Source of the DNA: Flammeovirgaceae bacterium
GTDB taxonomy: Bacteria; Bacteroidota; Bacteroidia; Cytophagales; Cyclobacteriaceae
DNA length: 40,000 nucleotides
Assembly: GCA_012032815.1 (NCBI GenBank)
Contig: JAAUQD010000011.1
Coordinates: forward strand, 1 to 40,000
Reading direction: 5' to 3'
The position numbers were made by a program, and so were the translations under genes. Under the pieces are notes generated by a model that was given only the letters and a program-made list of their open reading frames with translations, was not told the DNA's origin and ran no database searches. Below, in pieces: positions 14,204-35,725 of the stretch. The first letter of the stretch is position 1. Every line of letters starts with the position of its first letter.

Positions 14204-14235
14204 AAAAGTTGATAACACATTACCTACAAATAAGT

Positions 14236-16014: not shown

Positions 16015-16019
16015 CTCAC

Positions 16020-17555: not shown

Positions 17556-17556
17556 G

Positions 17557-18533
17557 CTACCAATCAAGAATGTATGCAAAAATGAGTGGCGCTACAATGG
17601 TTGCATCCGACTCAATTATATATTTAGGGGTTTCAATACTTAGCTTCCCCCAAGTAATTTTTTCATTAGGAACTGCACCGGAATATGATCCATAGCTTGT
17701 TGTCGAATCACTGATCTGACAGAAGTAACTCCAATAAGGAACTCCCTCTCGTTCAAGATCCTGATGTAACATAGGTACAACACAGATTGGAAAATCACCG
17801 GCAATACCACCTCCAATTTGAAAAAATCCTATACCATCGGTTCCGGCTTCCTTGGTATACCAATCGGCAAGCCATACCATGTACTCGATACCGCTTTTCA
17901 TGGTTGAGGCTTTCAACTCACCTGTCAGCACATAGGAAGCGAAAATATTTCCCATCGTGGAGTCTTCCCATCCGGGTACAACCATGGGAAGGTTCTTTTC
18001 TGCCGCAGCAATCATCCACGAATTTTTAGGATCAATTTCATAATACTGCTTTAGATCACCACTGTTCAGCATCCGGAACATAAATTCGTGAGGGAATAAT
18101 CGCTCTCCTTTATCTTCTGCATCTTTCCAAACTTGGAATAAATGTTTTTGTAATTTCCGAAATGCCTCCTCTTCCGGAATACAGGTGTCCGTTACACGAT
18201 TCAAATGATTCTTCAACAAGTCCCACTCCTGTTCAGGAGTAAGGTCTCGATAGTTAGGAATGCGCTTGTAATGAGAGTGTGCCACAAGGTTCATTATATC
18301 CTCTTCAAGATTGGCACCTGTACATGAAATGATATGTACGTTATTACTTCGAATCATTTCAGCGAAACTGATTCCCAGTTCTCCTGTACTCATCGCTCCG
18401 GCCAATGTTACCATCATTTTTTTCCTTCTGCCAGGTGTTTCTTATAGCCTTTGGCGGCATCCACCAGTGCCGCTGCATTGAAGTGCAGATAGTGCTTTTC
18501 AATAAATGATGAAATAGGACGGTTAGGGCTCAT
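17557..18533 (-). CDS. deoxyhypusine synthase-like protein, frameshifted
   Basis: The 325-residue repaired protein starts MSPNRPISSFIEKHYLHFNA at 18533. The frame breaks in the T7 run (plus strand) at 18417-18423, where an eighth base restores GKKMMVTLAGAMSTGELG. The NAD-binding region (MMVTLAGAMS), the IGGGIAGDFP motif and TWGKL, equivalent to the catalytic lysine region SWGK of eukaryotic deoxyhypusine synthase, are all present. Bacteria have no eIF5A, so such homologues are thought to make homospermidine or related polyamines. The neighbours arginase and arginine decarboxylase support a polyamine role. Confidence 0.88.
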
Positions 18534-18587
18534 TTCGTTGATTAAAATTTGGTGCGAAATAGGTAAAACTTATAAAAGGAATGGAGC

Positions 18588-19552
18588 TCATTTCTCCACG
18601 GTCACTAATCTGTTTTTAATGGCTCGTGCTGTTGCTTCCAGTATCTCGAAAGCTCCTTCTGCCATTCGGTTTTCGGTGTCGAGTGTCGGGTTCACTTCGG
18701 CTATCTCCCAGGCACAAACTTTCGGATCTTTGGCCAACTCAACGTTCAATGTCTTTGCTTCTTCAAGTGTAAGTCCATTTGGAACTGGGGTTCCAGTGCC
18801 ACTAGAAACACGGCTATCAATACTATCCACATCAAAAGAAATGTAAATCAAGTCGCAATGATCCAGCATCTTGAGGGCGTCTTGAGCTGCCTTTATAGGT
18901 CCTTGCTTTCGAACCTCTTCCGCTGTGATGTAGCCCATCCCATATTTATTTATAAGATAGTTTTCCGGTTTCTCAAGATCGCGAACAGAAATATAAACGA
19001 TGTCTTCCGGATAAATCTTTGCACCGGGCATCCCCACATTTTTCAACTGCTCCCAATACTCAAGGGTTTCTCCCCTCGGATCATTCGCCTTACATTCAAG
19101 ATTATCAATATCACATGCCATGGCCAGTGTCATCCCATGCATGTTGCCGGAAGGTGTGGTATACGGTGTATGCATATCGGCATGCGCATCAATCCAGATC
19201 ACGCCCAGCCGTTGCTTTGGATAAGCTTTTTTTATTCCGGCAATTGTTCCATACGCGGTACTATGATCGCCAGCCATAATGATGGGGAAGAAATCTTCGT
19301 AGATGGTTTCATACACTTCAAGACAAACGCGTTCTTCCATGATCATGACACCATCTATAAACTTAGCATGAGTAAACTGTGCGCTGTCAAACAACAGCTC
19401 ATTAACATGCTCCACCTCTACGCTCTCATGTTGCTTGAAAAATCAGATTTAAGATCAAGACTGGCTATTTTCATAGCCTCAACACCCAGGCTGGCCCCGC
19501 GTGTTCCTGCACCGATTTCTGATTTCACCTCAACTATTTTTATATCCTTCAC
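18588..19552 (-). CDS. arginase (ureohydrolase), frameshifted
   Basis: The metal-binding motifs of ureohydrolases are complete: AGDHS, DAHADMHTP and SFDVDSID. The loop TTPSGNMHG is the arginase form (serine and asparagine bind the substrate carboxylate), whereas agmatinases have another loop, so I call arginase; agmatinase is the alternative. The N-terminus lies in another frame: GTG 19552 starts MKDIKIVEVKSEIGAGTRGA, and one base added to the A run at 19438-19442 joins it at SDFFKQHESVEVEHVNE. The repaired length is 321 residues. It lies 54 bases upstream of the deoxyhypusine-synthase-like gene and is divergent from speA. Confidence 0.9.
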
Positions 19553-19816
19553 ACCGTTAATAATAAATACTTACCAATAGACTTTTACTTTATAAGATCA
19601 TTCGATTTGAATAAGGTCTTGAGTGCCGACCTTAGCGATCCGGTAAAGGGGTAATAAAACCAGAAAATGAAGCTAAAAAACAGTAATTCATGCCCTTCTT
19701 GTGATTGCAAAGATGGCAAAATTATCTCAATATTGCACTCTTTAAAATGAGTTGTTGGCTGTTCGGTATACTTTGTTGCAGCCTCATAGCAGCTTAAAGC
19801 GAACAACTAAATACAA

Positions 19817-21211
19817 ATGAAAAGTTATCGGGAACTGATTGAGCAAACATTTGAATTTCCTCAGGAGGAATTTAAAGTTTGGGAACATGAACTCTTATTC
19901 AATGATGTGCCGGTCATGGACATCATAAAAGAATACGGAACTCCTCTTAAACTTACCTACCTTCCCCGCATCAGCGAAAATATTCGTTTTGTTCAGGCCA
20001 CTTTCAACAATGCACTGGAGCGATTCAAATACAGCGGAAGTTACACGTATTGCTATTGCACAAAATCATCGCACTTTTCTTTTGTGCTGGAGGAAGCGCT
20101 TAAAAACGATGTTCATATTGAAACATCTTCTTCATTTGACATCCCTATAGTCAGACAATTATTTCAGGCAGGAAAAATAAATAAGAACACGTTTATCATT
20201 TGCAATGGATATAAAATGCCATTGTACACACAATACATTTCTGAATTACTGAATGATGGTTTCACCAACTGCATCCCCATTCTTGACTCCATGTCAGAAT
20301 TATCCGCGTATGAAAGCAAGGTGAATGATCCATTTAAACTTGGCATACGGGTAGCCGCTGATGAAGAACCAAAATTTGAATTTTATACTTCTCGTTTGGG
20401 TGTGCGCTACAGTGATATTATTCCATTTTATAAAGAGCGCCTTCAGAACAATCCAAAGGCATCCTTGAAAATGCTTCACTTCTTTATTAACACAGGTATT
20501 AAAGATACGGCTTACTATTGGAGCGAACTCAGTCGCTTTATTTTCAAGTATTGCGAGCTGCGAAAAATATGTGACACCCTGGACTCGATTGATATTGGAG
20601 GTGGATTTCCAATTAAGACATCACTTACGTTCCGGTATGATTATAAGTATATGATTGAGCAGATCATTGAAAATATTAAATGGATCTGCGGCAAGAACAA
20701 TGTTCCGGTACCTAACATCTTCACCGAGTTTGGAAGTTATACCGTTGGTGAAAGTGGTGCTATCCTCTACTCCATCGTAGACCAAAAACTTCAAAACGAC
20801 AAAGAGCTGTGGTATATGATTGATGGGTCTTTCATTACCCACATACCGGATGCATGGGGTCTGAATCATAAGTATATTTTGCTTGCACTTAATAAATGGG
20901 ACGATCCATTTCATAAAGTGAACATCGGTGGGCTTACCTGTGACAGTATGGACTACTATAATTCTGAGGCACATCATGGCGAAGTGTTTTTGCCTATGAT
21001 CAATGATGATGAAAAATTGTACATCGGCTTCTTTCATACCGGAGCGTATCAGGAATCACTCGGTGGGTATGGTGGTATACAACATTGTCTTGTTCCTGCA
21101 CCAAAGCATGTTCTGGTAAATAGAAATGAAGATGGAGAAATCTCTACAAAGCTGTTTGCTCCTGAGCAAACGAGCGACAGCATGCTCAACCATTTAGGGT
21201 ACAACAAATAA
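19817..21211 (+). CDS. speA: biosynthetic arginine decarboxylase, short form
   Basis: The 464-residue fold-type III PLP enzyme carries the PLP lysine in YCTKSSHF (K83), the phosphate loop IDIGGGFP, the TEFGSYTVGESG stretch in place of EPGR, and the CDSMDYY motif that contributes the second active-site cysteine and aspartate. It converts arginine to agmatine. It is much shorter than the roughly 650-residue enterobacterial SpeA, but this size is usual for Bacteroidota. The divergent partner is an arginase. A weak TATACTTTG element lies at about 19767-19775, and the 260-base gap otherwise shows nothing convincing. A terminator follows. Confidence 0.9.
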   Translation: MKSYRELIEQTFEFPQEEFKVWEHELLFNDVPVMDIIKEYGTPLKLTYLPRISENIRFVQATFNNALERFKYSGSYTYCYCTKSSHFSFVLEEALKNDVHIETSSSFDIPIVRQLFQAGKINKNTFIICNGYKMPLYTQYISELLNDGFTNCIPILDSMSELSAYESKVNDPFKLGIRVAADEEPKFEFYTSRLGVRYSDIIPFYKERLQNNPKASLKMLHFFINTGIKDTAYYWSELSRFIFKYCELRKICDTLDSIDIGGGFPIKTSLTFRYDYKYMIEQIIENIKWICGKNNVPVPNIFTEFGSYTVGESGAILYSIVDQKLQNDKELWYMIDGSFITHIPDAWGLNHKYILLALNKWDDPFHKVNIGGLTCDSMDYYNSEAHHGEVFLPMINDDEKLYIGFFHTGAYQESLGGYGGIQHCLVPAPKHVLVNRNEDGEISTKLFAPEQTSDSMLNHLGYNK

Positions 21212-21229
21212 TCTTCTTTTCAAAAATGC

Positions 21230-21266
21230 AGATGTCATTTAATTCTATGACATCTATCATTTTTTT
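21230..21266 (+). terminator. Rho-independent terminator after speA
   Basis: AGATGTCAT (21230-21238) pairs perfectly with ATGACATCT (21247-21255) around an eight-base loop; after a four-base gap a run of seven T follows. Confidence 0.75.
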
Positions 21267-21337
21267 CTGTTTACTAAATTCCAATTATTGAATTAATTTG
21301 GTTTAATAATTGCACCAGTACCTAAAAAATAATCATT

Positions 21338-21588
21338 ATGAAAAAGAATCATTTTCAATTTTTGCTTTTAATGCTATCTGTAGTTTTACTAACCTCATTC
21401 ACCATTCAAAACTTTCAGGAGGATTGGGCAGTGCCGGCCAAGTACAAAAACATGGAAAATCCGACTAAAGCAAGTAAAGACAATCTTGATATTGCAAAAG
21501 GGAAACAGCAGAATCTATAGAGAAAGCAAAACTTAAAGAACAAACAAGATCTAAGGAAGTGTTAACACCTCAAGCTTCAGGATTATGA
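21338..21588 (+). CDS. short exported protein resembling a cytochrome c leader without haem motif
   Basis: The first 60 residues (MKKNHFQFLLLMLSVVLLTS, then EDWAVPAKYKNMENPTKASK) look like the signal peptide and linker that precede a monohaem cytochrome c domain in many Bacteroidota. The frame then ends at a TAG at 21518-21520. Adding one base near 21515 extends it with IEKAKLKEQTRSKEVLTPQA to a TGA that overlaps the ATG of the next gene, so the intended end is probably 21588. No CxxCH is encoded in any frame between 21470 and 21588. The product is either a small exported protein of about 84 residues or a remnant whose cytochrome domain was lost. Confidence 0.55.
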
Positions 21589-22429
21589 AAAGATTATTTT
21601 TTATTCTGCTTTTTATTCCACTCGCACTCGCTGCTCAGGAGGATATTCTACCTGTTGAGATGGAATTAAAATACTTGCAACGCGATACTAATTTTGAGTT
21701 GACTGCCAGTCTCGTTGATGAGGACGGGGAACCTGTTAAAGGAGTTGATGTACTTTTCACGGCTCATGTGAATGGTTCAAGCAATACTTTGGGCACTGCG
21801 GTTACAAATCCAAATGGAGTTGCAATCATTAAAAAAGAATTGAAACACTTCGAGAGCTCGGCCATCAATTCCATCTTGAGGCAGTTTTTACTGGTAATAC
21901 CGCATATGATGCAACATCAAGTGAAATTGACATCACCGATGTTTCGCTAACTGTCACCACAGAAATAGTGGATTCATTGTATATCGCAGCCATTCAGGTA
22001 ATGAAATGGAATACGGATATGAGCGAGGAACCGGTTCCAGATATTGATATCCTGTTTTATGTACCCCGACTCTTCAGCTTATTGCCGGTGGGCGAAGCCT
22101 ATACCAACAAACAAGGATCTGACGAATTTGAATTCCCAATGGACCTTCCCGGCCAAAATGGAGAATTAACAATCGTATCGAGAATTGAAGATCATGATGA
22201 TTTTGGAACTATCGAGGTGAGTAACGAAACGAATTGGGGTGTGCCCATTGCAAACGGCAATTCCAAACTTCCAAGAGCCCTGTGGAGTCCTGATGCACCC
22301 ATGTGGATGCTGATCTCATTTTTCATTTTAATGGCAGGTGTTTGGGGTCACTATCTTTATGTTGTCATTAACATGTTTCAAATTCAGAAGAGTGGTAATG
22401 TCAACGATGCATTGAACTATATCGAATAA
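21585..22429 (+). CDS. exported Ig-like domain protein with C-terminal membrane span, frameshifted
   Basis: A signal peptide (MKRLFFILLFIPLALAAQ) is followed by a beta-rich, Ig-like domain (LTASLVDEDGEPVKGVDVLF) and, after a frameshift, a second such region and a terminal membrane span (MWMLISFFILMAGVWGHYLY). One base missing near 21862 (SSAHQFHLEAVFTGN when restored) explains the break; the joined protein has 281 residues. I do not recognise a named family. The start overlaps the preceding reading frame by ATGA, so the two are probably translated together and may form a membrane-associated pair. Confidence 0.7.
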
Positions 22430-22454
22430 ATACTTCACCCATCAGGCTCAGGAA

Positions 22455-22592
22455 TTAAATTTCATCCTCAATAATAGCAATTCCAACAACGTGACCGAAT
22501 TCGCACCACACTCCGAAAAATTTCAACTCGGGTGGTCGAATATCAGGTAAAAGCCAATCTACAATGGAATGGACCATCCCAACAACGTCCAT
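22455..22592 (-). CDS. possible small protein, 45 residues
   Basis: The minus strand reads MDVVGMVHSIVDWLLPDIRP followed by a hydrophobic, tryptophan-containing end and a TAA. The open frame continues upstream of this ATG for about 18 codons without another ATG. Composition looks like a real protein and not like shadow sequence: the opposite strand carries no gene here. I do not recognise it. It fills most of the 286-base gap between the Ig-like gene and the EF-G paralogue. Confidence 0.35.
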   Translation of the reverse strand: MDVVGMVHSIVDWLLPDIRPPELKFFGVWCEFGHVVGIAIIEDEI

Positions 22593-22715
22593 AATTAGAT
22601 AACCAATAAATATTTTCTGCCGCTCTGATTTCTCTGATAAAAGTCATTGAGTTTCTCTGTTTTTTAAATTAATTTAAAAGTCCGGTTTTATCCTGCCAAC
22701 TAAAACGACTGCGTT

Positions 22716-24841
22716 ATGAAAGTATATGACGACAAACACATCAAAAACATTGTACTGCTGGGAGCCCCAAAAAGCGGCAAGACACTTCTTGCCGAAGATA
22801 TGATCTTTGAAGCAGGCATCACCCACCGCAGAGGAACCATTGAAGGAAAAAATACAGTCAGCGATTACCACGAAATTGAACACGAGCGTGGTAATTCTGT
22901 TTTGCGACTCCCCTGCATACCGAATGGCATGATTATAAAATAAACATCATTGATACTCCCGGTTTTGATGACTTTGTAGGAGAAATCGTTTCCTCTCTTC
23001 GCGTGTCTGATACCTGTATCATGGTCATCAATGCACAACATGGTGTAGAGGTTAGCACAGAACTGATTTGGAATTATGTGGAAGAATTTGAAAAACCTGT
23101 AATCTTTGCCATCAACCAGATTGATCACCCAAAAGCCAGTTTTGAAGACAGTCTTGCGTCTCTAAAAAATCGATTCGGTAGTGCTGTCACTCAAATGCAA
23201 TACCCTTTCAATTCAGGAGAGAGCTTTGATGCCATCATCGATTTATTAAAAATGACGATGTACAAGTTTCCTGAAGCAGGCGGGAAGCCTGAAAAGCTTC
23301 CTATTCCGGATTCGGAAAAAGAAAAGGCCGATAAACTCCATAACGAATTAGTTGAAAAAGCAGCTGAGAACGATGAAAAGCTAATGGAGCTGTATTTTGA
23401 GAAAGGCACGCTGGATGAAGATGAAATGCGCCAGGGGCTGAAGGTAGGTATGGTGAACCGGCAGATCTTTCCGGTGTTTTGCATGTCGGCCAAAAAGAAT
23501 ATGGGCAGTGGCCGCATGATGGGCTTTATTGATAATGTGGCTCCTTCGCCCAGCGAAGCCAAAGATGAAATATCAGTAGCCGGAAGCGCGGTACCCTGTG
23601 ATGTGAAGAAGCCAGCCGTCCTCTTCATTTTCAAATCACACATTGAGCCCAGTCTGGGCAAACTTTCTTTTTTTAAAGTAATGTCTGGTGAAATCAGCAC
23701 ATCCTCAGAATTGATCAATGCACAAACGGGTGCCGTGGAGCGTTTCAATCAATTGTTTATAATGGATGGAAAAACCAGAACACCGGTTGACAAATTGGTG
23801 GCCGGAGATATTGGGGCTACCCTTAAACTCAAAGAAACATTTACCAATCAAACGCTGCATTCAAAAGGACATGAAATAATCATTAAACCCATTGAATTTC
23901 CGGAACCTCGAATTCGCACCGCAGTTATTGCCAAAACAAAAGGCGATGATGAAAAAATTGGTGAAGTGCTCAGCAAAATTCATCAGGAAGATCCAACACT
24001 GTTGGTAGAGTACTCCCGTGAACTTAAACAACTTATTATTTCCGCTCAGGGCGAACTCCATCTCATGATGTGTAAATGGTTTCTTGAAAATGCCTACAAG
24101 CTGCACATCGATTTTATTACACCCAGAATTTCATATCGAGAAACCATTCGGAAGCCCGCCAGTTCCAGCTATCGGCACAAAAAGCAATCCGGAGGTGCGG
24201 GGCAGTTTGGTGAGGTGTATATGAAGATTGAACCCTATCATGATGGTATGCCTGAGCCAACTGAGTTCAGTGTACGTGGAAAAGAAGTAATCGAGTTGGA
24301 ATGGGGTGGAAAACTTGTGTTCTACAATTGCATCGTGGGTGGCGTAATCGATACCCGCTTTATACCCTCCATATTAAAAGGAGTAATGGAGAAAATGGAA
24401 GAAGGCCCGATTACGGGTTCGTATGTGCGTGATGTACGTGTCATGGTTCATGATGGCAAAATGCATCCGGTCGATTCAAACGATATTTCATTTAAAATTG
24501 CCGGTATGATGGCTTTCAAAGACGCATTTATGAAAGCAGAACCGCAATTGCTTGAGCCAATCTATGACCTTGAAGTAGTTTTGCCAGAGGAGATGATGGG
24601 TGAAGTGATGGGTGATCTTCAAACTCGAAGATCAATGATAATGGGAATGGATACCAAAGGAAGAAACCAGGTGATCAAAGCACGAACTCCATTAGCTGAA
24701 CTTGATCGATACTCAACTACACTGCGATCGCTTTCTCAGGGACGTGCAAGCTTCAGCCAGAAATTTGCAGAGTTTGCTCCGGTACCTTTTGAGGTTCAGC
24801 AAAAGCTGGCCAGGGAGATGCATGAAGTAGAGATGGCCTAG
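22716..24841 (+). CDS. elongation factor G paralogue (EF-G2 type), frameshifted
   Basis: The five-domain EF-G layout is present over 708 residues after repair: a GTPase domain with P-loop GAPKSGKT (16-23), switch I RGTIEGKNTVSDY, domain II, and the C-terminal domains IV/V (GGAGQFGEVYMKIEP; LQTRRSMIMGM). The G3 motif is DTPGFDD instead of DTPGH, and G4 is NQID instead of NKxD, so nucleotide handling differs from canonical EF-G. The frame breaks at TTTT 22900-22903; a fifth T gives SVFATPLHTEWHDYKINIID. This is a housekeeping-EF-G relative of unknown role, perhaps ribosome recycling or stress. Confidence 0.88.
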
Positions 24842-24917
24842 AGTCTGATTTAATTAATTAGAATTAATCCTAACTTTCTCGCGTTGATTCAAGAACGTGC
24901 AGCTAATTATTTTATAA

Positions 24918-26045
24918 ATGAAGCGATTAAAAGATAAAATTAATCCAGAGAAATTAATTCTTGGAGGCCTTAAAACCTTATCAAGTATTAATCTAAATTT
25001 TTACTCAAGATTAAAAAGCGATTCAAAAAGACGAACCGACATAACCTTTATAGGTGAAAAGAAAATTCAGAATGTAAAGTCTCAATTATTTGAATACAGC
25101 GAGCATGATTGCATTGTCACGGAACAAATCAATTCATTTGAAAAGCTCAAGGACGAGAACGGAAAAGTATTTTGGCTGAATTTTCATGGCATCCATGATG
25201 TCAATCTTTTTCAGCGATTAGCCTCAGAAATCAAACTTGACCGGTTAACCTTGCGACAACTGGTAGACACAACCCAACGACCAAAAGTTGAAGAGTTCGA
25301 TACCTATATTTTCTTCAACGTGAAGTCAATCTTAAAAGACAAGATACTGGGGCTTAAAGTAGAGCAATTGTCATTTGTATTAAGTGACCACTACATCCTG
25401 TCATTTCAGGAGGAGGAGGGTGATCACTTTGACTCCCTACGCAGCAAGTTACTCGAAAACATGGGAGTGGTCCGTAAGCGGGGATGCGACTATCTGCTTG
25501 CCCAGTTATTAGACGCAATACTGGATAACTATTTTGAAACTATTGATTCCATCAATCAGGAGATTGCAATGCTAGAAAAAAGTACAATTTCGAATCCCTC
25601 ACAAGACACATTGCTTAGCATTGAAAAAGTAAAAAAATCTACAGAGATCATTAAGAAATCCCTGCTACCATTTAAAGAAGCCCTGGTGCGTATTTTAAAT
25701 GACAAGACCAGCTACATTAAAAAGGGTAATAAAAAATATTATCGCGATTTAAAAAACAGCTGCCTGAACGCCATAGAAGAAATTGATGCCAGCAATAAGT
25801 CGTTGGAAAGTTTAACGAACATCTATTTTTCCTCTTTGAGCCACAAAATGAATGAGATCATGCGGGTATTGACTACTGTAGCTACCATATTCATTCCATT
25901 GACATTCATTGCGGGTATTTACGGAATGAATTTCGATTATATGCCCGAATTAAAGTACAAAAACGGGTATTTCATTATTTGGGGAATCATGTTGTCAATA
26001 CTGGTAGGCATGCTGGTCTATTTCAAAAGAAGAAAATGGCTTTGA
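24918..26045 (+). CDS. corA: CorA-type magnesium/cobalt transporter
   Basis: The 375-residue protein has a long cytoplasmic alpha/beta and helical domain and two C-terminal membrane spans. The signature YGMN lies in FIAGIYGMNFDYMPE between them, and the tail (KRRKWL) is basic as in CorA. CorA forms a homopentameric channel for Mg2+ (and Co2+) uptake. It stands alone, 76 bases after the EF-G paralogue; no terminator was seen just after it. Confidence 0.93.
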   Translation: MKRLKDKINPEKLILGGLKTLSSINLNFYSRLKSDSKRRTDITFIGEKKIQNVKSQLFEYSEHDCIVTEQINSFEKLKDENGKVFWLNFHGIHDVNLFQRLASEIKLDRLTLRQLVDTTQRPKVEEFDTYIFFNVKSILKDKILGLKVEQLSFVLSDHYILSFQEEEGDHFDSLRSKLLENMGVVRKRGCDYLLAQLLDAILDNYFETIDSINQEIAMLEKSTISNPSQDTLLSIEKVKKSTEIIKKSLLPFKEALVRILNDKTSYIKKGNKKYYRDLKNSCLNAIEEIDASNKSLESLTNIYFSSLSHKMNEIMRVLTTVATIFIPLTFIAGIYGMNFDYMPELKYKNGYFIIWGIMLSILVGMLVYFKRRKWL

Positions 26046-26242
26046 ACAGAATGAAAATGACCTGCAAAAAAAATCTCATATTAAACCAATTTATTTCCTT
26101 TGATCGATTGCCTGTTGAATATCAATTCATTCTACAATGTGGACAACTTGGTTGAAAACATGTTGAGTTCTTTTGTCCCGTTTCTTTTGCAAATGTCCTC
26201 CTGACAAATATCTTCACATCACTAAGTTGATCATTGACAGAT

Positions 26243-26496
26243 TGACCAGGGGAAGTCGGTAAACAACGGATTATTTTCTACGGAAACTAATAGCAAAAAA
26301 GCCGAACGAGATTGGTCATACATTCGAGAAGGATCCTTCGGGAAACCTGGCGAATCCTGAAACCGGGGCTGTTCATCGCAAGGTGAATAGAGCAAAGTTT
26401 CGTTTGTTAGTACAAATTAGCGTTATTCATGAACTACGGTTTATGAACAATGAAAGACGGGAGAAGTCAAGCAATTGAATGTTCTCCCGTTTTTTT
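26243..26496 (+). ncRNA. candidate structured noncoding RNA, family unknown
   Basis: No protein gene lies in 26046-26494, but the plus strand folds by inspection into consecutive helices. UGACCA 26243-26248 pairs with UGGUCA 26313-26318 and encloses UCGGU/GCCGA (26256-26260/26301-26305) and a hairpin 26270-26291 with loop UACG. Next come a hairpin 26322-26355 (AUUCG/CGAAU, AGG/CCU, UCC/GGA, loop UUCG), one at 26368-26393 with loop GCAA, a short UUUGU/ACAAA at 26403-26416, one at 26421-26452 (13 pairs, one mismatch, loop UACG), and the terminator. Four loops are the extra-stable UNCG or GNRA type, which chance does not readily give. The 5' end is not fixed (about 26225-26243). No RNase P, tmRNA, SRP or known riboswitch core was recognised. 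Confidence 0.7.
26457..26496 (+). terminator. strong Rho-independent terminator of the RNA gene
   Basis: ACGGGAGAA (26457-26465) pairs without mismatch with TTCTCCCGT (26482-26490) and a run of T follows at once. The plus-strand orientation shows that something upstream on the plus strand, with no protein gene since corA, is transcribed and stopped here. It may also serve the opposing HAD gene, which ends in the T run. Confidence 0.9.
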
Positions 26497-27000
26497 ATGT
26501 CAACTTTTTAGCCATAAAATGGAAGGCGTCAGCCAGTGACTTAGCCACAACATCACTTTTGAATTCAGTGGACTCTTCTCCAATTAAAACGGTTTTAATT
26601 CCCAACGATTGAGCAGGTATCAGGTCTCTGTCCCTATCCCCTACCATCCACGATGTTGAAGGATCAATGGAATAACGCGCTATCGCTTTTTCAAATAAAA
26701 GCCTTCCGGGCTTTCGCGAAAGTGATGCACTGATGCTGGGATGATAAGGACTAAAATAAAATTGATTAATTTGATTTTGCAATCACGCTGAAGCAAATCA
26801 TGAATATGATCCATTTGAACCCTGGAATAAATCCCTCTTGAAATACCAGCCTGGTTGGTGATGACAATAACCAAATAACCCAATTGCTTAAAGGCATGAA
26901 TAGCTTCTGATACTCCGGGCAGAATACGATAGTGTTCCGGCAGATAGACGTAATCGGGCCGGTCGGCAATTAAGACTCCATCCCTATCAAAAAAATACAT
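26495..27000 (-). CDS. HAD-IIIA phosphatase (GmhB/histidinol-phosphatase-like), frameshifted
   Basis: The N-terminal frame has the HAD nucleophile motif FFDRDGVLI and the second motif VIVITNQAGISRG; the C-terminal frame has LSRKPGRLLFEKA (lysine of motif III) and MVGDRDRDLIPAQSLG (motif IV). Adding one base to the AA at 26781-26782 joins them into 168 residues. GmhB enzymes hold zinc with CPHHP and CxCRKP cysteines; here the region reads SPYHPSISASLSRKPG, with no cysteines, so the zinc site is absent. The substrate is probably a sugar phosphate, perhaps a heptose bisphosphate. Confidence 0.82.
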
Positions 27001-27065
27001 GATGATTGCTTCACGGGTTTTTCATTTTCGAATCCAAAATACCTTCAAACACCGCGTTTACCAAA

Positions 27066-27096
27066 TTTCAATAAAGAAGCCATTTTGTTAGTTTTG
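27066..27096 (+). promoter_or_regulatory. Bacteroidota-type promoter for the GT2 gene
   Basis: TAGTTTTG at 27089-27096 matches the -7 consensus TAnnTTTG exactly. The tetramer TTTC at 27066-27069 lies 19 bases upstream and is one base off the -33 TTTG. The start of transcription would be near 27103, which excludes the upstream TTG at 27085 and supports the GTG start at 27112. Confidence 0.5.
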
Positions 27097-27111
27097 AGTC
27101 ACCAAAAGGTT

Positions 27112-27849
27112 GTGAGCAACGCGTTAGTAATTGTACCCACTTATAATGAAAAGGAGAATATTGCCCTGATTGCCGAGGCTGTATTCGCTCTTCAACGACC
27201 TGTGCACCTTCTGATTGTTGATGACAATTCACCCGATCAAACAGCGCAGATTGTTCAAGATCTTCAGACTCATTACAATACACAAGAAAAGAAGCTGCAT
27301 CTTTTGCAGCGTAAAGGGAAGCTGGGATTAGGTACTGCCTACATCGAAGGATTTCACTATGCACTCCAAAACAACTATGAATACATCCTCGAAATGGATG
27401 CGGATTTCTCTCACGATCCGAATGATCTCCCCAGGCTGATTGCGGCATGCGAAAAGGGAAGCGATGTGTCCGTTGGATCACGCTACGCCACCGGAGTTAA
27501 TGTAGTGAACTGGCCCATCGGACGTGTATTGCTATCTTATTTTGCCAGTAGCTATGTTCGTGTCATTACGCGCATGCCCATCCGGGATGCAACAGCAGGA
27601 TTTGTTTGCTATAAAAAGGTGGTGCTTGAGACAATTCCTCTGAACAAGGTAAAATTCATTGGCTATGCTTTTCAGATAGAAATGAAATTTCTGGCCTGGA
27701 AGTATGGATTTAAAATTACCGAAGTACCCATCATATTTACAGAGCGGGTCCGGGGCCATTCAAAACTTTCAGCGGGTATTTTTAAGGAGGCCTTCTTTGG
27801 TGTTCTGCAAATGAAAATTATGAGCTGGTTTAAATCGTACAAAAAATAA
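27112..27849 (+). CDS. polyprenol-phosphate mannosyltransferase-like GT2 glycosyltransferase
   Basis: The protein of 245 residues has the GT2 start ALVIVPTYNEKENIA, the VDDNSPDQTA and EMDADFSHDP (DxD) motifs, and the conserved DATAGFVCYKK region of the dolichyl/polyprenyl-phosphate mannose synthase group. It transfers a sugar from a nucleotide donor to a polyprenyl phosphate on the inner face of the membrane. There is no C-terminal membrane domain. The start is taken as GTG 27112 because of the promoter and the standard family beginning. It is divergent from the HAD gene. Confidence 0.9.
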   Translation: MSNALVIVPTYNEKENIALIAEAVFALQRPVHLLIVDDNSPDQTAQIVQDLQTHYNTQEKKLHLLQRKGKLGLGTAYIEGFHYALQNNYEYILEMDADFSHDPNDLPRLIAACEKGSDVSVGSRYATGVNVVNWPIGRVLLSYFASSYVRVITRMPIRDATAGFVCYKKVVLETIPLNKVKFIGYAFQIEMKFLAWKYGFKITEVPIIFTERVRGHSKLSAGIFKEAFFGVLQMKIMSWFKSYKK

Positions 27850-27850
27850 A

Positions 27851-29074
27851 TTAATCAAACCGTATTGCCTGGATAGGTTGAATACGGCTGATCAGCATGG
27901 TGGGTAAAATCAGTACGAGGGTGACAATTAAAAATGTAATCCCATTCAACCAAAGTACGATATCCCAGTTCCAACTGATGGGCACATAACTCATATAATA
28001 ATCCCTGGCATTTAGCGGTATAAGCTTAAACTGGTACTGGAGATAACAGATGCCCAACCCAATGGCATTCCCAATCAACAGCCCGATGCCGATCAACCTA
28101 ATTCCCTGAAATATGAAAACGGAACGGATTGTACGGTTCATGGTGCCCATTGCTTTCAAAATACCTATCATTTGCGTTCGCTCCATAACCAGGATTAGAA
28201 CTACAGAAATCATATTTACACATACCACTGTCAGAATTACACCCAATAATATATTCACCTGGCGCGATATTAATCCGAGCCATTCAAATACCTGAATATA
28301 TTTTTCCGAAACTTTTTCCAGATAGAAATCATAATCCATCTCCTCATTGATGAGCCCGGCAGTTTTGTCCAGTTGTGAAACATCCCGAACGAATAATTGC
28401 AGTCCACCGGCAACGGAATCCGGCCAGTCATTAAGCCGCTGGATGAGGGCCAGATCTCCGATCACAATTTTACTATCAAAATATTCTGAAAGATTGGTTT
28501 CGTACAAACCGCTTACCCTCAATTTTCTGAAGCGGGGTGGATTTTGAAAGAAATGAATAATTATATCATCCCCTGTTTTAATATTCAGCTTGTTGGCAAT
28601 ATTCACACTCAGCATAACTTCCTGCGAATAACCGGAGTCTGGAAAATTTATGAACGAACCTTCGGCAATATTTTCCAGAAATCGTTTTTGGTCAAAACTC
28701 CTTCCCACCCCTCGAAAAACTACGCCCAAAACCTCTTCCTCAGTCTTAATCATTCCCGACTTGTGGCTGTACTCCTGAATATGATCAATTGCCGGATTGC
28801 TGGTCTTATAGCTTCTATATAAATCAATGGGATAATCAAATGGTCGCTCTTCAGGCGAATTGTTCATCGTGAACTTTGAAATCAGCAAGTGACCGCTAAA
28901 ACTATAAATCTTGTTTTGGACAGTTTCCTGAAATCCTTTCATCACAAGAAATGCCACAATCGAAGCAGCCAACCCTATGGCGATGCTTGCAATAGCAATC
29001 CGGTGGATGGTAGATGAAAAGCCTCCCAAATTCTCACGGCTGATTCTTTTGGCGATGAAGTACGACAGGTTCAA
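27851..29074 (-). CDS. LolC/E-type FtsX-like ABC permease
   Basis: The 407-residue protein shows an N-terminal membrane span (IAIASIAIGLAASIVAFLVM), a large periplasmic domain of about 220 residues and three C-terminal spans with the FtsX pattern (VILVMERTQMIGILKAMGTM). The start NLSYFIAKRISRENLGGFSS is typical of Bacteroidota LolE-like proteins that release lipoproteins from the inner membrane. The ATPase partner is not in the window. It converges with the GT2 gene, the two stops being one base apart. Confidence 0.87.
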   Translation of the reverse strand: MNLSYFIAKRISRENLGGFSSTIHRIAIASIAIGLAASIVAFLVMKGFQETVQNKIYSFSGHLLISKFTMNNSPEERPFDYPIDLYRSYKTSNPAIDHIQEYSHKSGMIKTEEEVLGVVFRGVGRSFDQKRFLENIAEGSFINFPDSGYSQEVMLSVNIANKLNIKTGDDIIIHFFQNPPRFRKLRVSGLYETNLSEYFDSKIVIGDLALIQRLNDWPDSVAGGLQLFVRDVSQLDKTAGLINEEMDYDFYLEKVSEKYIQVFEWLGLISRQVNILLGVILTVVCVNMISVVLILVMERTQMIGILKAMGTMNRTIRSVFIFQGIRLIGIGLLIGNAIGLGICYLQYQFKLIPLNARDYYMSYVPISWNWDIVLWLNGITFLIVTLVLILPTMLISRIQPIQAIRFD

Positions 29075-29085
29075 CGTATATGGCT

Positions 29086-29093
29086 TAATTTTG
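29086..29093 (+). promoter_or_regulatory. TAnnTTTG box before the DUF1343 gene
   Basis: TAATTTTG matches the Bacteroidota -7 consensus exactly, 29 bases before the ATG at 29122. The -33 element is not recognisable at the usual distance. Confidence 0.35.
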
Positions 29094-29121
29094 GCTTTAT
29101 CACTGCCAAAATAACGATTAA

Positions 29122-30273
29122 ATGATCAGATCATTTGTATTCCTGCTCTTTTTGCATGTTGGTTCTGCTTTTTCACAATCCACACCAACTCAAATTGCAA
29201 CCGGAGCGCAACAACTCAATCTCCTGATTCCTCAACTGAAAGGAAAGCAAGTCGGATTGGTAGTGAATCATACGGCTACCATTAACAACACTCATCTGGT
29301 CGATTCATTATTGAAACTAAAAATCAATGTTAAAAAAATATTTTCTCCTGAGCATGGATTTCGTGGTACAGCGGATGCGGGAGAAAAGGTAGCTGATGCC
29401 ATCGATCCTAAAACTAAGCTTCCGGTGGTTTCTTTGTATGGTGAAAACCGGAAACCAAAACCCGAACAAACCAGAGATCTTGATGTTATCGTTTTCGATA
29501 TTCAGGATGTAGGCGTTCGATTTTATACCTACATCAGCACACTACATTATGTAATGGAAGCTTGCGCTGAAAATGGAAAAAAACTAATCGTCCTCGATCG
29601 CCCAAATCCGAACGGCCACTACATTGATGGTCCGGTGCTTGATCCATCATTAAAATCTTTTGTTGGAATGCACCCGGTTCCAATTGTACACGGCATGACC
29701 ATCGGAGAATATGCTCAAATGATTAATGGAGAGGGTTGGCTTGGAGATAAGAAGTGTGATCTCACCGTAATCGCCATTAAAAATTATACTCATCGTACGT
29801 CCTATTCGATTCCAATTAAGCCATCTCCCAACCTTCCTACTGACAATGCCATTGCATGGTATCCTTCCATTTGTTTATTTGAAGGAACAGTCATAAGTGT
29901 GGGTAGAGGAACTCAAAATCCCTTTGAAATTTTCGGGCATCCCTTGACACAGAACTTGCAGTATTCGTTTACCCCAAAGAGCATTAAGGGTATGTCTACC
30001 AATCCCCCGTACGAAAACGAAGCTTGTTATGGAGTGGATCTTCGTGCTGCCAAAGCTGAAAAGTTCACGATCAAGTATTTATTGCTGATGTTTCATTTAT
30101 TTCCTGATAAGGAGAAATTCTTCAATACATATTTCGATAAACTAGCCGGGACAAAAAGCCTGCAGGAGCAAATTAAAAACGGACTCAACGAAGAGAAAAT
30201 AAAAGACTCATGGAAACCCGGGCTTGACGCCTTTAAAGAAACACGAAAAAAATATCTGATCTACCCGGATTAA
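29122..30273 (+). CDS. DUF1343 protein, NamZ-like exo-N-acetylmuramidase
   Basis: After a signal peptide (FVFLLFLHVGSAFSQ) the 383-residue protein shows the DUF1343 hallmarks: GLVVNHTATINN, FSPEHGFRGTADAGE, DIQDVGVRFYTYISTLHYVM, DRPNPNGHYIDGPVLD and the FEGTVISVGRGT region. Members such as NamZ of Bacillus and Tannerella remove N-acetylmuramic acid from the ends of peptidoglycan fragments. Acting in the periplasm, it probably serves cell-wall recycling. endonuclease III follows after three bases. Confidence 0.9.
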   Translation: MIRSFVFLLFLHVGSAFSQSTPTQIATGAQQLNLLIPQLKGKQVGLVVNHTATINNTHLVDSLLKLKINVKKIFSPEHGFRGTADAGEKVADAIDPKTKLPVVSLYGENRKPKPEQTRDLDVIVFDIQDVGVRFYTYISTLHYVMEACAENGKKLIVLDRPNPNGHYIDGPVLDPSLKSFVGMHPVPIVHGMTIGEYAQMINGEGWLGDKKCDLTVIAIKNYTHRTSYSIPIKPSPNLPTDNAIAWYPSICLFEGTVISVGRGTQNPFEIFGHPLTQNLQYSFTPKSIKGMSTNPPYENEACYGVDLRAAKAEKFTIKYLLLMFHLFPDKEKFFNTYFDKLAGTKSLQEQIKNGLNEEKIKDSWKPGLDAFKETRKKYLIYPD

Positions 30274-30276
30274 TTC

Positions 30277-30921
30277 ATGCCTCGTATATCACAAGGAGAG
30301 AAAATAAAGGATATCCTGAAAATCCTTAACCGTCATTATCCAAATCCGGCAGTGCCACTTCATCACAAAGATGCTTACACACTGCTTATTTCGGTTTTGT
30401 TATCAGCCCAATGCACGGATGAGCGCGTCAATAAAACAACACCTCTTCTGTTTAAGCAAGCGGACAATCCATATGATATGATAAAGCTTTCGGTGGAAGA
30501 AATCAGGGAGATCATAAAACCATGTGGCCTCTCCCCGATGAAATCGAAGGGAATTGCCGGACTTTCTAAAATAATTGTGGAAAAGCATGACGGCAACGTT
30601 CCGGACACGTTTGAGGATCTAGAAGCACTTCCGGCTGTAGGCCATAAAACAGCATCAGTAGTAATGACCCAATGGTTTGGCAAACCTGCCTTCCCGGTAG
30701 ATACGCATATCCATCGGCTGGCTCATCGGTGGGGACTTTCATCCGGCAAAAATGTTGAACAAACTGAAAAAGACCTGAAAAAAATTATTCCTGAAAAAAT
30801 ATGGAATAAAGCACACTTGCAGATCATTTATTTTGGACGTGAATATTGTCCGGCACGCGGCCATGTTTGGACCAGTTGTCCGATTTGCAAAAAATACATG
30901 AGGCAGGAATTACGAGACTGA
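30277..30921 (+). CDS. nth: endonuclease III, with incomplete Fe-S cluster motif
   Basis: The 214-residue DNA glycosylase/AP lyase has the helix-hairpin-helix with catalytic lysine (LPAVGHKTASVVM) and the catalytic aspartate in FPVDTHIHRLAHRWGL. In the standard enzyme four cysteines (C-x6-C-x2-C-x5-C) hold a 4Fe-4S cluster. Here the tail reads YCPARGHVWTSCPICKK, with three cysteines in C-x9-C-x2-C spacing and no fourth, so the cluster is probably lost. It removes oxidised pyrimidines from DNA. It follows the DUF1343 gene after three bases and its end overlaps the converging membrane gene by 12 bases. Confidence 0.93.
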   Translation: MPRISQGEKIKDILKILNRHYPNPAVPLHHKDAYTLLISVLLSAQCTDERVNKTTPLLFKQADNPYDMIKLSVEEIREIIKPCGLSPMKSKGIAGLSKIIVEKHDGNVPDTFEDLEALPAVGHKTASVVMTQWFGKPAFPVDTHIHRLAHRWGLSSGKNVEQTEKDLKKIIPEKIWNKAHLQIIYFGREYCPARGHVWTSCPICKKYMRQELRD

Positions 30922-31275
30922 TTTTTTAAACATCGTAAAAAACAGCAGCGGAAGAAAGCCAAAAATAAATAGTCCACTTCCAACCATCAGCAGAATATCT
31001 GCTCCCTGCAAATGCCACAGCTTAAAAATGATCGAAAGACCGGCAAGTATACCACTGACCAGACCAAAGAGAAACTTTAGTCTTTCGACCTTTGTCCGTT
31101 TAATGGTGCTCTTGAAAAAATCAACGGCTAGCATGGGCAAATAAATAAAGGCAAAGCCCGCAAATCCCCAGATTGACAACTCGCTTCCTCCGGGCCATTG
31201 GAGGATGCTAAAAACCCATCCCAATGAAAAAGCAACAGTTGAAATCAGCCCAATAATAAACTTAAGCATCTTCAT
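30910..31275 (-). CDS. four-span membrane protein, GldL-like repeat
   Basis: The 121-residue protein has four hydrophobic helices arranged as two similar halves: LGWVFSILQWPGGSELSIWG and LSIIFKLWHLQGADILLMVG. The pattern of an aromatic/basic helix end followed by W-P-G or L-Q-G-A recalls the membrane part of the gliding motor protein GldL, but the long cytoplasmic tail of GldL is absent. The function is unknown; many Bacteroidota carry such short proteins. It overlaps the 3' end of nth and is divergent from fmt. Confidence 0.75.
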   Translation of the reverse strand: MKMLKFIIGLISTVAFSLGWVFSILQWPGGSELSIWGFAGFAFIYLPMLAVDFFKSTIKRTKVERLKFLFGLVSGILAGLSIIFKLWHLQGADILLMVGSGLFIFGFLPLLFFTMFKKSVS

Positions 31276-31337
31276 GTGTAAAATATTTTATCAAAGTAAA
31301 AAGAATAACACACATGTCGCTTCGAAAATTGAATGTT

Positions 31338-31345
31338 TATATTTG
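31338..31345 (+). promoter_or_regulatory. TAnnTTTG box before fmt
   Basis: TATATTTG matches the -7 consensus exactly, 12 bases before the ATG of fmt, which would leave a very short leader. No good -33 element is visible. It would drive the long operon that ends with the TauE-type gene. Confidence 0.35.
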
Positions 31346-31357
31346 ACGCTTACTGAT

Positions 31358-32274
31358 ATGACTGCATTACGAATCATATTTATGGGTACTCCCGAGTTTG
31401 CTGTACCCAGCCTCAACATTCTGATCAGGAATAATTTTAATGTAGTTGCCGTAATTACGGCAGTTGATAAACCACAAGGTCGTGGTCAAAAAATCGGGTA
31501 CTCCCCTGTTAAAGAATGTGCATTAAATAATTCTATCCCAATTTTGCAGCCCACTAATCTTAAAGACGCTGAATTCATTCATCAACTCAAATCCCTGAAG
31601 GCTGACCTGCAAATTGTTGTTGCCTTTCGCATGTTGCCGGAGGTCGTGTGGAACATGCCTCCCTTAGGAACTATAAATCTGCATGCTTCTCTTCTTCCCC
31701 ACTATCGCGGTGCAGCACCCATCAATTGGGCGATTATAAATGGTGAAAAGGAAACTGGCGTAACGACTTTCTTTTTGCAACACGAAATAGATACCGGTGA
31801 AATTTTGTTTCAGGAAAAAGAACCTATTCATGCCCAAGACGATGCTGGTACATTGTACGAACGACTTAAGATAAAAGGTGCTGACCTGATTCTTAGGTCT
31901 ACTAAAGCGATTGGGGAAGGTCAGTTTAAAACGGTTTCTCAGCCTATTGGAAGTGATTTGAAGAAAGCACCAAAAATTTTTAAAGAGATATGCGAAATTA
32001 ATTGGGATAGAAAGAGCGAAGCGGTTCGGAATTTTATTCGGGGGCTATCGCCCTACCCGGCAGCCTGGTCAATAATCAATGGCAGGAAGTATAAAATATA
32101 TCTTGTCAAAATGGTTAGTGACAATAAAGTTTCAGCAGCAGGAGAAATTCAGACTGACCAAAAATCTTTTTTATTGATCAAAACTAAAGACGGATGGGTT
32201 TCAATTCTTGAGCTGCAGCTGATGGAAAACGAAGAATGAAGATTGAGGAATTCTTTAGAGGTAATAAAATATGA
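31358..32274 (+). CDS. fmt: methionyl-tRNA formyltransferase, frameshifted at the end
   Basis: The start MTALRIIFMGTPEFAVPSLN is the normal Fmt beginning; an open frame runs further upstream to 31205 but covers non-coding sequence. The catalytic region includes HASLLPHYRGAAPINWAIIN. The printed frame stops at 32239 after LMENEE. One G added near 32223 gives [20 protein letters not shown] and a TGA overlapping the ATG of the next gene by ATGA, with a normal 305 residues. Fmt formylates initiator Met-tRNA. It heads the operon with folA, another folate enzyme. Confidence 0.93.
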
Positions 32275-32885
32275 GAACTGAACAGGGGATATTTTGTCTT
32301 TGTATTACTATGCTTTTATCCACATCCTCACGTTGTCAAGTGGTACAAAAAGGCGACTTCACTCTAGGCGGTGGAGTTGACTATATCGAATTCACTTCAT
32401 TTCAACCCCGGTATGTTGTGAGTCTGAATGGCGAAAACAGGATTGGCCAACATTTCACCACATTTTTTGTGTTGGATGCGGCCAGAGATTACCTGCATTT
32501 TGGACCCGGAACTATTTTCCTTCCATTGGGCCTTCTCCTTTTGAATTCAGATGAATCCTCTTTTGGTGATTTCTTATCAGGTTTGCTTTTTGTAGGGACA
32601 TCATTAGAACACATTGGTTATAGTTTACCTATGGGGCATCATGCCGAGATTATCCCGTATGTAAGTATGCTTCGTTTTCGATTTATGTGGGATGGTCCAA
32701 CAACTCCAGGCAATGGTAATTATGTATCCGGATCACTCGGAGTAAAACTTCAATACTTGTTTAAGGAGCGTTGGTATACATCCGCTCATGTTGAATATTC
32801 GCAACTGTATTATTCAGGAAGGCCAGGTGGTATTGAATCTGGTGTTTCGGTTAATTACATCGTAAAAAGTAATACTGTAAAATGA
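32271..32885 (+). CDS. exported beta-rich protein of unknown function
   Basis: The 204-residue protein has a plausible signal segment ([17 protein letters not shown]) and many alternating short strands with aromatic girdles ([29 protein letters not shown]), as in small outer-membrane beta barrels. I do not recognise a family. ATGA overlaps link it to fmt before and folA after, so it is cotranscribed. The function cannot be inferred. Confidence 0.7.
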
Positions 32886-33382
32886 TCATCTCTTTAATAG
32901 CTGCCGTTTCTAAAAACCGGGTCATTGGAAGAAACAATGATTTGCCCTGGCATTTACCCGATGATATGAAGTACTTTATGAAAACCACATCAGGGCATCA
33001 CGTAATTATGGGCCGAAAAAACTACCAATCCATTCCTGAAAAATTCAGGCCTTTGCCCAACCGGACTAATATTGTGGTAACCCGACAATCTATATTTGAA
33101 GCTCCGGGCTGCACCATCGCAAACAATATCAATGAATCACTCAACATAGCCAGAGTTGCCGGTGAAAAGGAAGTTTTTATAATTGGAGGTGCCGAAATTT
33201 ACATTGAAGGAATTGCCATTGCAGAAAAGTTATACCTGACTGAAATTAACGCAACGATTAATGGAGACACGTACTTTCCTGAATTCGATAAAACAAAATG
33301 GATTGAAGAAAGCCGAAAACACCATGCACATGATGAGCGCCACCACTATTCCTTTGATTTTGTAGTCTACAAAAGAAAATAG
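32882..33382 (+). CDS. folA: dihydrofolate reductase
   Basis: The 166-residue enzyme starts [20 protein letters not shown], followed by [10 protein letters not shown] with the catalytic acid (D27 equivalent), [15 protein letters not shown] with the NADPH-binding glycine, and [11 protein letters not shown]. It reduces dihydrofolate to tetrahydrofolate. It lies two genes after fmt, which uses formyl-tetrahydrofolate. The four-base overlap with the previous gene indicates coupling. Confidence 0.97.
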
Positions 33383-33402
33383 TAATATTACCTGACTAAG
33401 CT

Positions 33403-33777
33403 ATGGAGACACACAAACGTATTCTGGGAATTCTTTTTGTTATAACCGGAGCCTTTCAGTTAATTATACTGACCATTCTTTCCATTTTCTTTTCCACCAT
33501 CTTTTCTTTTGCTTTAAGTCAGGTGGATGGTGATGAGCGCATGATCACAGAGACCATACTTGGCATTGTACGATTTATTCCAATGTTCATCATCATTTTT
33601 ATAAGTATCCCTTCATTAATTGCAGGCGCAGGGCTGCTGAGCAAGCAAAAGTGGGCGATGATACTTGCATTGATTATTGGTTGCTTAAAACTTTTTTCAT
33701 TTCCTGTAGGTACGGCTTTGGGAATTTATACCATCTGGGTGTACGCTGAGGATCAAAAGCAATTAAACCCTTCATGA
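33403..33777 (+). CDS. small membrane protein of unknown function
   Basis: The 124-residue protein has about four hydrophobic segments and a short hydrophilic end (YAEDQKQLNPS). I recognise no named family. Its stop overlaps the start of the SDR gene by ATGA, so both are made from the same transcript. Confidence 0.65.
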   Translation: METHKRILGILFVITGAFQLIILTILSIFFSTIFSFALSQVDGDERMITETILGIVRFIPMFIIIFISIPSLIAGAGLLSKQKWAMILALIIGCLKLFSFPVGTALGIYTIWVYAEDQKQLNPS

Positions 33778-34577
33778 CTTACTTTTCGAATAAGGTAGTC
33801 TGGCTGACGGGTGCTTCGTCCGGTATTGGTGAAGCTGTAGCCTATGAGCTGGTTACTCAGGGTGCAATGTTGATTATGTCATCAAGAAGAAAAGAAGAAC
33901 TGGAGCGCGTAAAGGGAAATATGGATTCCACCATGCATGGACGTGTGAAGATTCTTCCACTCGATTTATCGAAATCGGAAACCCTGACCCTCAGCGCTGA
34001 GGCTGCCGTCCAATTATTTGGTCGGGTTGATATTCTAATTAATAATGGCGGGATAAGCCAACGAAGTCTTGCACGTGATACCAAACTGGAAGTGGATCGG
34101 GCTGTCATGGAAGTTGATTATTTCGGAACGGTGGGACTTACCAAAGCACTTCTTCCACATTTTTTGAAAAGGAAATACGGACATATTGTAACCGTGACGA
34201 GTGTTATCGGAAAAATCGGGACACCTTACCGGTCAGGGTATGCTGCCGCGAAACATGCACTTCATGGATTTTTTGATTCGTTGCGTGCCGAAGTTTGGAA
34301 AGATAACATTTATGTCACGCTTATTCTTCCGGGATGGATTCGAACTAACGTTACATTAAATGCCTTAACCGGTGACGGCAGTAAGCTCAATGAAATGGAT
34401 CATTCAACAGATGCCGGACTAAAGCCGGGAGATTTGGCCAAAAAAATGTTGAGAGCAATCGCGGCCAGAAAACGAGAAGTGTATATCGGTGGAATGAAAG
34501 AATGGTTGGCCATAACGGTAAAACGCTTCACACCCGGCTTGTTTGCAAAAATTATTCGCAAGGCTAAGGTACGCTGA
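33774..34577 (+). CDS. short-chain dehydrogenase/reductase
   Basis: The 267-residue classical SDR has the cofactor motif TGASSGIGEA, NNGGISQRS in place of NNAG, and the active-site S...YxxxK in TSVIGKIGTPYRSGYAAAKH. RR near residue 40 after the second strand (SSRRKEE) favours NADPH. It resembles the DHRS7B-like group. The position upstream of the flavoprotein-polyketide synthase genes makes a reductive or tailoring step possible, but the gene is also common outside such clusters. Confidence 0.88.
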   Translation: MTYFSNKVVWLTGASSGIGEAVAYELVTQGAMLIMSSRRKEELERVKGNMDSTMHGRVKILPLDLSKSETLTLSAEAAVQLFGRVDILINNGGISQRSLARDTKLEVDRAVMEVDYFGTVGLTKALLPHFLKRKYGHIVTVTSVIGKIGTPYRSGYAAAKHALHGFFDSLRAEVWKDNIYVTLILPGWIRTNVTLNALTGDGSKLNEMDHSTDAGLKPGDLAKKMLRAIAARKREVYIGGMKEWLAITVKRFTPGLFAKIIRKAKVR

Positions 34578-34615
34578 TCGGCTATTCGCTACACTTCTAA
34601 ATCATTGATGTTTTT

Positions 34616-35722: not shown

Positions 35723-35725
35723 ACA

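Follow-up and report, generated by a model that had tools for sequence, protein, structure and literature searches.

The window analysed here, a 40,000-nucleotide stretch of DNA from a Flammeovirgaceae bacterium, contains a gap of 449 bases between the corA gene, which ends at 26045, and a HAD gene, the frame of which starts at 26495. The corA gene (PF01544) is on the same strand as the RNA described below, 175 bases upstream of its predicted start, and the HAD frame is on the opposite strand. Pfam was run for the genes of the window alone, and the genes of relatives were annotated by open reading frames. The HAD phosphatase beside the RNA is split into two frames that overlap, 26495-26782 and 26680-27000, and both match HAD in part. 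Further upstream, two frames seem to share the gene for elongation factor G: 22716-22943, recognized by sequence, and 23003-24841, recognized by Pfam. A frameshift or an assembly error is therefore likely in this part of the window (22716-24841).

A first-pass annotation of the window had described the gap as 449 bases without a credible protein gene. The size is confirmed, and no reading frame is conserved: among 36 sequences of the RNA, the longest frames within it measure 22-88 aa, lie at varying places and are on the other strand in 25 of the 36.

Predicted RNA and its fold

For the plus strand from 26225 to 26505 the folding energy is -90.8 kcal/mol; shuffled versions average -63.4 (sd 4.2, z -6.5), and none of 200 shuffles folds as well, in agreement with the earlier suggestion of a multi-helix fold beyond chance repeats. 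The evidence points to a free-standing structured RNA encoded in the gap, predicted on the plus strand at approximately 26221-26496 (approximately 276 nt). The predicted start is taken from the promoter and the predicted end from the U run. The RNA had been thought to begin at 26225, which we correct here, as the closing helix begins at 26222 and transcription would probably begin at approximately 26221, four bases earlier.

The RNA would close on itself through two helices, P1 and P1b, around three inner domains, and would continue with a UACG hairpin and then a terminator hairpin. All helices are on the plus strand. In the closing helix P1 (26222-26229 with 26413-26420), 84.8% of alignment cells are paired and 7 of 8 pairs change on both sides; the window forms 7 of the 8. 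The inner closing helix P1b (26233-26242 with 26402-26411) was found by covariation and has 10 pairs in the window fold. It aligns less well across sequences, with 68.8% paired when taken as a 5-pair helix; for the 8 pairs tested, 15 to 32 of 34-36 sequences pair, the best two being paired in 28/36 and 32/36 with 5 and 6 pair types. The domain P2/P3 (26243-26249 with 26312-26318, and 26256-26260 with 26301-26305) encloses an internal loop with an A-rich consensus, with 89.6% of cells paired in P2 and 77.8% in P3. This is the domain previously marked at 26243-26318, and it is present in the minimum-energy fold of the window. Hairpin P4 (26270-26291), with a UACG loop, is 92.6% paired and 8 of its 9 pairs change on both sides.

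The P5 region (26318-26358) is where the window and the consensus part. Consensus P5 (26318-26322 with 26354-26358) has 82.7% of cells paired, but only 1 of its 5 pairs forms in the window, where 26330-26334 pairs with 26354-26358 instead and 26338-26342 pairs with 26346-26350. A small consensus stem with a UUCG loop (26335-26342) has 100% of cells paired, the loop (26337-26340) closing on only two pairs in the alignment consensus. Thus, of the four loops UACG, UUCG, GCAA and UACG named in the first-pass annotation, the two UACG loops and the GCAA loop are present in the best fold of the window, whereas the UUCG stretch is paired otherwise. P6 (26359-26363 with 26397-26401 in the window; 94.9% of cells paired) and hairpin P7 with its GCAA loop (26369-26390; 84.8 and 93.4% of cells paired) are both in the window fold.

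Hairpin P8 (26421-26452) had been read as 13 pairs with a UACG loop, and exactly these 13 pairs occur in the minimum-energy fold of 26221-26496; all 13 consensus pairs change on both sides, 86.7% of cells are paired, and the hairpin has a counterpart in the second group of RNAs described below. The terminator hairpin P9 (26453-26496), with a GCAA-capped tip and a U run, has 95.0% of cells paired and 97.2% in the tip. A plus-strand terminator of nine pairs had likewise been recognized; in the minimum-energy fold its stem is of 13 pairs (26453-26465 with 26482-26494), with the U run extending to 26496. The consensus comprises 79 pairs (74 and P1b), of which the window can form 67, and its best fold contains 59.

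Covariation

RNAalifold applied to a 15-sequence MAFFT alignment gave 58 pairs, 35 of them with changes on both sides. For a structure of 74 pairs in 36 distinct sequences, 66 of the 74 pairs change on both sides yet stay paired, and 89.5% of cells are paired; shuffles average 42.5 (0/500 reach the value of the structure), and slid partners are at most 54.7% paired. As the alignment of 36 sequences was fitted to the covariance model R1 (see below) and leans towards its structure, the fold predicted from the window only was also counted on a plain MAFFT alignment. There, 74.1% of cells are paired in the other 35 sequences, compared with 64.5% in shuffles (maximum 65.8%) and at most 51.3% for slid partners, and 557 cells are compensatory against a shuffle maximum of 367. 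By mutual information, the 13 strongest of 38,630 column pairs are all in the structure, as are 27 of the top 80, and two strong covarying pairs outside the 74-pair structure led to the additional helix P1b. The homologues collected, when tested for covarying pairs, therefore display strong compensatory change in the stems, and this covariation is strong enough to support most of the predicted secondary structure.

Homologues and distribution

The RNA is single-copy in its own draft genome (84.8% complete). BLAST found it in 15 of 58 genomes, its own included, all within the genus. The covariance model R1, built from 15 sequences, matches the window at 26217-26501 with 217.5 bits, the window sequence being among its training sequences. 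Within the genus R1 matches 28 of 62 genomes, 26 with scores of at least 150 bits, and in a sample of the family it matches 20 of 118 genomes (16/84 genera), 9 with at least 97 bits. The other 34 genus genomes, including the single-contig genome G195, may have lost the RNA, may carry a diverged copy or may be incompletely assembled. Such patchiness within the genus argues that the role is not essential, except if these copies have become too divergent for the model to find.

The weak model matches define a second group, which shares with the RNAs above (the first group) the 5' end, closing helix, UACG-type hairpin, terminator, promoter and boxes, but differs in the interior. A third model, R3, finds RNAs in 86 of 196 family genomes (46/84 genera) at E <=0.001, and in 70 of the 196 at 45 bits or more by a count from the table; a few of these are first-group copies (e.g. 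in G251). Some R3 rows are opposite-strand matches to the terminator, which inflate the copies listed per genome; with these excluded, genomes carry up to four copies, as in G115 (all above 88 bits) and G130 (four within 10 kb). R3 missed the copies in G019, G072 and G122, which R1 or R2 find at 170 bits or more. The alignment of the second group is without the A-rich bubble, and the conserved single strands differ between the groups. In cross-scoring, model R2 gives 35-62 bits on second-group copies and R3 gives 33-55 bits on first-group copies. That the two groups form one family is thus a modest claim, resting on the shared architecture and these modest scores, as the interiors are not alignable.

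At L157, L158, L159, L160 and L247, two to four second-group RNAs lie within 1-10 kb in a genome, and such clustered copies sometimes flank a single open reading frame on both sides. L166, L167 and L168 hold longer second-group relatives with repeated GACGGGCAACCGCAGAA-like modules, which look as if they grew by internal duplication.

Beyond the family, a terminator pattern that covers 17 of the 36 known first-group copies was scanned against one genome per species of 84,980 species. It yielded 23 stretches, in 22 of which R2 confirms the RNA (at least 177 bits); the titles of these 22 read Cyclobacteriaceae, Cytophagales, Chryseolinea, Flammeovirgaceae or just Bacteroidetes. The remaining stretch, from a Clostridia record, matches by the terminator alone (17.2 bits). 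Among 291 genomes in the order, R2 matched 30, including 11 that do not belong to the family (25-35 bits). In a phylum sample of 296 genomes, R2 matched 19 and R3 matched 13; the matches beyond the family numbered 14 for R2 (23-33 bits, apart from G561 with 44) and 8 for R3 (25-35 bits, apart from G561 with 41). E-values of these covariance-model searches are rough, and the best control scores in 798 kb of other stretches were 28.2 bits for R2 and 15.3 bits for R3, so that only matches of about 45 bits or more were trusted. G561, just below that level, looked like a homologue by eye. The hairpin behind the 28.2-bit control score lies at approximately 6340-6380 of L176 (G142:C1, approximately 4.2034 Mb) and is terminator-like, with the TCAAGCAATTGA tip seen in the RNA, in another context without the RNA.

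The neighbours of the RNA differ among clades (first-group loci, annotated by open reading frames). At 7 of 21 loci (L105, L108, L109, L110, L111, L114 and L096) the RNA is divergent from what we take to be cbb3-like oxidase genes, and in G019, G061 and G143 (L104, L101 and L103) from a gene that presumably encodes a universal-stress-protein-like product; unrelated genes lie beside the RNA at the remaining loci.

Comparison with known RNAs

The first-pass annotation recognized no known RNA core here, and this is borne out by Rfam 15, which at gathering thresholds has no match anywhere in the window. The best match below threshold, sraA (RF02029; 24.4 bits against a cut-off of 56, E 0.19), covers the 3' part of the RNA with the terminator, but its score is at chance level; the next two have E 3.8 and 9.2. 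Rfam searches of 11 second-group stretches and 12 of the 23 terminator-pattern stretches gave two tRNAs and one SAM riboswitch, none of them on the RNA. Absent from Rfam 15 and uncatalogued, the predicted RNA is, as judged from its sequence and its relatives, a new folded RNA family.

Bacteroidales-1 (RF01693) and Flavo-1 (RF01705), listed in a table of PMC2864571, are likewise candidate structured RNAs of Bacteroidota, but neither model matches the window or any of the 23 scanned stretches of relatives. Rfp18 and other independent transcripts of Flavobacterium psychrophilum (PMC9723704) resemble the new RNA as stand-alone small RNAs of Bacteroidota; Rfp18, described as widely conserved within its genus, comes from another family of the phylum, and we set it beside the new RNA by description alone. 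An Algoriphagus genome is annotated with three ncRNA genes, given without names (PMC11532033), and PMC6848030 supplies a metagenome gene count. Our literature searches on non-coding or small RNAs of Cyclobacteriaceae found no study of such an RNA, those combining DnaA box, small RNA and promoter in Bacteroidetes found nothing, and those on replication- or cell-cycle-linked structured RNAs found none of this sort for Bacteroidota.

Promoter and upstream element

In the 15-sequence alignment, conservation runs from an upstream element to the terminator and ends there. Conserved promoter DNA occupies 26138-26216, beyond the 5' end of the RNA. On the plus strand, TTTG at 26186-26189 likely represents what we take to be a -33 box, 19 bases before TATCTTCA at 26209-26216, the likely -7 box, which resembles the Bacteroidota consensus TAnnTTTG. 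The arrangement in the alignment, TTTG-N19-TANNTTCA, was compared by eye with the published consensus, for which a sigma-A box TAnnTTTG at -12 to -5 is described in Flavobacterium (PMC9723704). The placement of the -7 box would put the transcription start at approximately 26221, the base before helix P1. Both groups carry such a promoter-like sequence of the Bacteroidota sigma-A type.

Further upstream, at 26138-26174 on the plus strand, lies the element TGTKNAYAA-N4-GTNNANAAGTTGTKNANTWCTTTT, which consists of DnaA-box-like repeats; the copy in the window departs from the pattern at 2 positions. When up to 2 mismatches are allowed, this 37-base pattern has exactly one match in 14 of 15 first-group genomes (the miss is G018), at a distance of 79 bases from the start of the RNA model in 13 genomes and 78 in one, and the pattern written backwards has 0 matches. 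Since the pattern was written from the same alignments, the telling part is the absence of a second copy. On the RNA strand, the 150 bases upstream contain the relaxed box TGTKNAYAA in 20/21 first-group and 17/18 second-group copies, where approximately 0.017 would be expected per copy, and the strict box TGTGGATAA in 3/21 and 9/18. On the other strand, the corresponding numbers for the first and second group are 1 and 0 (strict) and 3 and 1 (relaxed). These counts take one copy per genome, from 21 first-group loci and from the 18 second-group copies with a placeable 5' end (L055, L059, L127, L165-L167 and L173 were left out). The strict box is the classical DnaA box, TTATCCACA, read on the RNA strand. 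Dedicated boxes at a fixed distance would suggest a specific regulator, for which DnaA is the first candidate; from box resemblance, it is a first guess.

Discussion

The structure of the RNA is conserved, it has homologues, and its control DNA is conserved with it. The reading that we favor, at middling confidence, is that the locus encodes a free-standing, trans-acting folded RNA that is probably protein-binding and whose synthesis is set by a DnaA-like factor. The most likely start of transcription is at approximately 26221, driven by a sigma-A-type Bacteroidota promoter, and the U run at 26496 would end it. As the RNA appears untranslated and unattached to a neighbouring gene, action in trans is expected. 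Selection acts on most helices, and each group conserves different single strands; this favors, at modest odds, that the folded RNA would bind a protein rather than pair by a fixed antisense stretch, although one common protein partner is not obvious when so much of the interior differs between the groups.

Alternatively, the RNA could be a base-pairing small RNA, in which the folds protect and present single strands, such as the A-rich loop strands of the first group, for mRNAs. A promoter, a terminator and a position between genes are what one expects of such RNAs, and the A-rich strands (AAAAC-AAA and ACAAAAAA) belong to the best-conserved positions in the first group. We nevertheless find this option possible but doubtful, as the conserved single strands are unlike between the two groups and covariation spans nearly the whole molecule. 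The single target tried, dnaA, gave no consistent pairing and was rejected: in a crude test on 8 genomes, the seed score beat shuffles in only 2 (G000 and G019), and the start codons of these two are doubtful. It is unlikely that the RNA is 6S-like and binds RNA polymerase via an open bubble formed by P3, the A-rich internal loop and P4. It does share with 6S RNA (RF00013) and 6S-Flavo (RF01685, listed in a table of PMC2864571) a free-standing chromosomal location and, in the first group, an internal stem-bubble-stem element, and a substitute for 6S is conceivable, as RF00013 has no match in 12 of 12 family genomes; however, RF00013 also missed a Bacteroides control genome, so that its absence carries no weight. 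Moreover, no 6S family is listed at E up to 10 in 26000-26560, the RNA is multi-branched, with several domains, UACG loops and an intrinsic terminator, rather than one long hairpin, and the A-rich bubble is lacking in the second-group alignment.

Slightly less likely still is a reading in which conservation chiefly preserves a DNA site, such as a DnaA-titrating or origin-like locus, to which the RNA is secondary. The DnaA-box-like repeats upstream would fit, as would the local GC skew, which changes sign within the window (negative over 1-20000, around zero or positive over most of 20001-40000, with no origin shown by it), but the compensatory changes point to an RNA. As a candidate oriC the RNA locus was rejected: the skew sampled in G030 turns near 1.9 and 4.5 Mb, with the origin placed at about 1.9 Mb, but the RNA maps to 3.55 Mb; neither in G023 (noisy) nor in G142 does the RNA coincide with a skew flip. 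With 10 to 20 stretches per genome this sampling is coarse and tests only gross position. In G142, furthermore, a tandem box array sits elsewhere, at 1.266 Mb. That the RNA belongs to a phage, plasmid or transposon is very unlikely. Several nearby copies do occur in some genomes, but same-genome copies are often within kilobases of each other, as after local duplication, and homology stops at the upstream element and the terminator; plasmids and phages gave no match at blastn sensitivity, and viral contigs, scanned by the terminator pattern only (17/36 known first-group copies), gave none either. Least probable of all, in our view, is that the RNA forms part of a neighbouring gene, as its leader or its 3' region. 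corA does lie upstream on the same strand, but the neighbours change between clades, no downstream gene is conserved and co-directional (the nearest downstream frame is opposite in strand at 15 of the 21 annotated first-group loci), which led us to reject a cis-regulatory leader or riboswitch, and the RNA has promoter-like and terminator sequences of its own. The preference of the first-pass annotation for a free-standing RNA over a leader is thereby upheld.

The array in G142 merits a description of its own. At 1501-1529 of L279 (G142:C1:1266202-1266230), two copies of TTATCCACA enclose a variant, TAATCCACA, with a 10-base period, inside an AT-rich stretch, and as the array is near the sampled turn of the GC skew, it is a candidate oriC of this genome. 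No tandem box array was found in the 6 genus genomes examined, and their origins are thus not located by boxes.

Returning to the free-standing, trans-acting RNA, its synthesis would be set by a factor, DnaA as a first guess, that binds the upstream box array. Taken further, and only tentatively, this could be a fast-evolving Bacteroidota RNA with transcription tied to DnaA via a dedicated box array at fixed distance, and so linked to replication or the cell cycle. As DnaA boxes would suggest a role in the cell cycle, a comparison with CcnA of Caulobacter, described as a non-coding RNA tied to cell-cycle control (PMC8959179), is apt by analogy only.

In conclusion, a complete-looking RNA gene, with control element, promoter, structure and terminator, was found from raw sequence. 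Many genera of Cyclobacteriaceae carry the RNA or its second-group relative, and the promoter region suggests a link of the RNA to a specific regulator.
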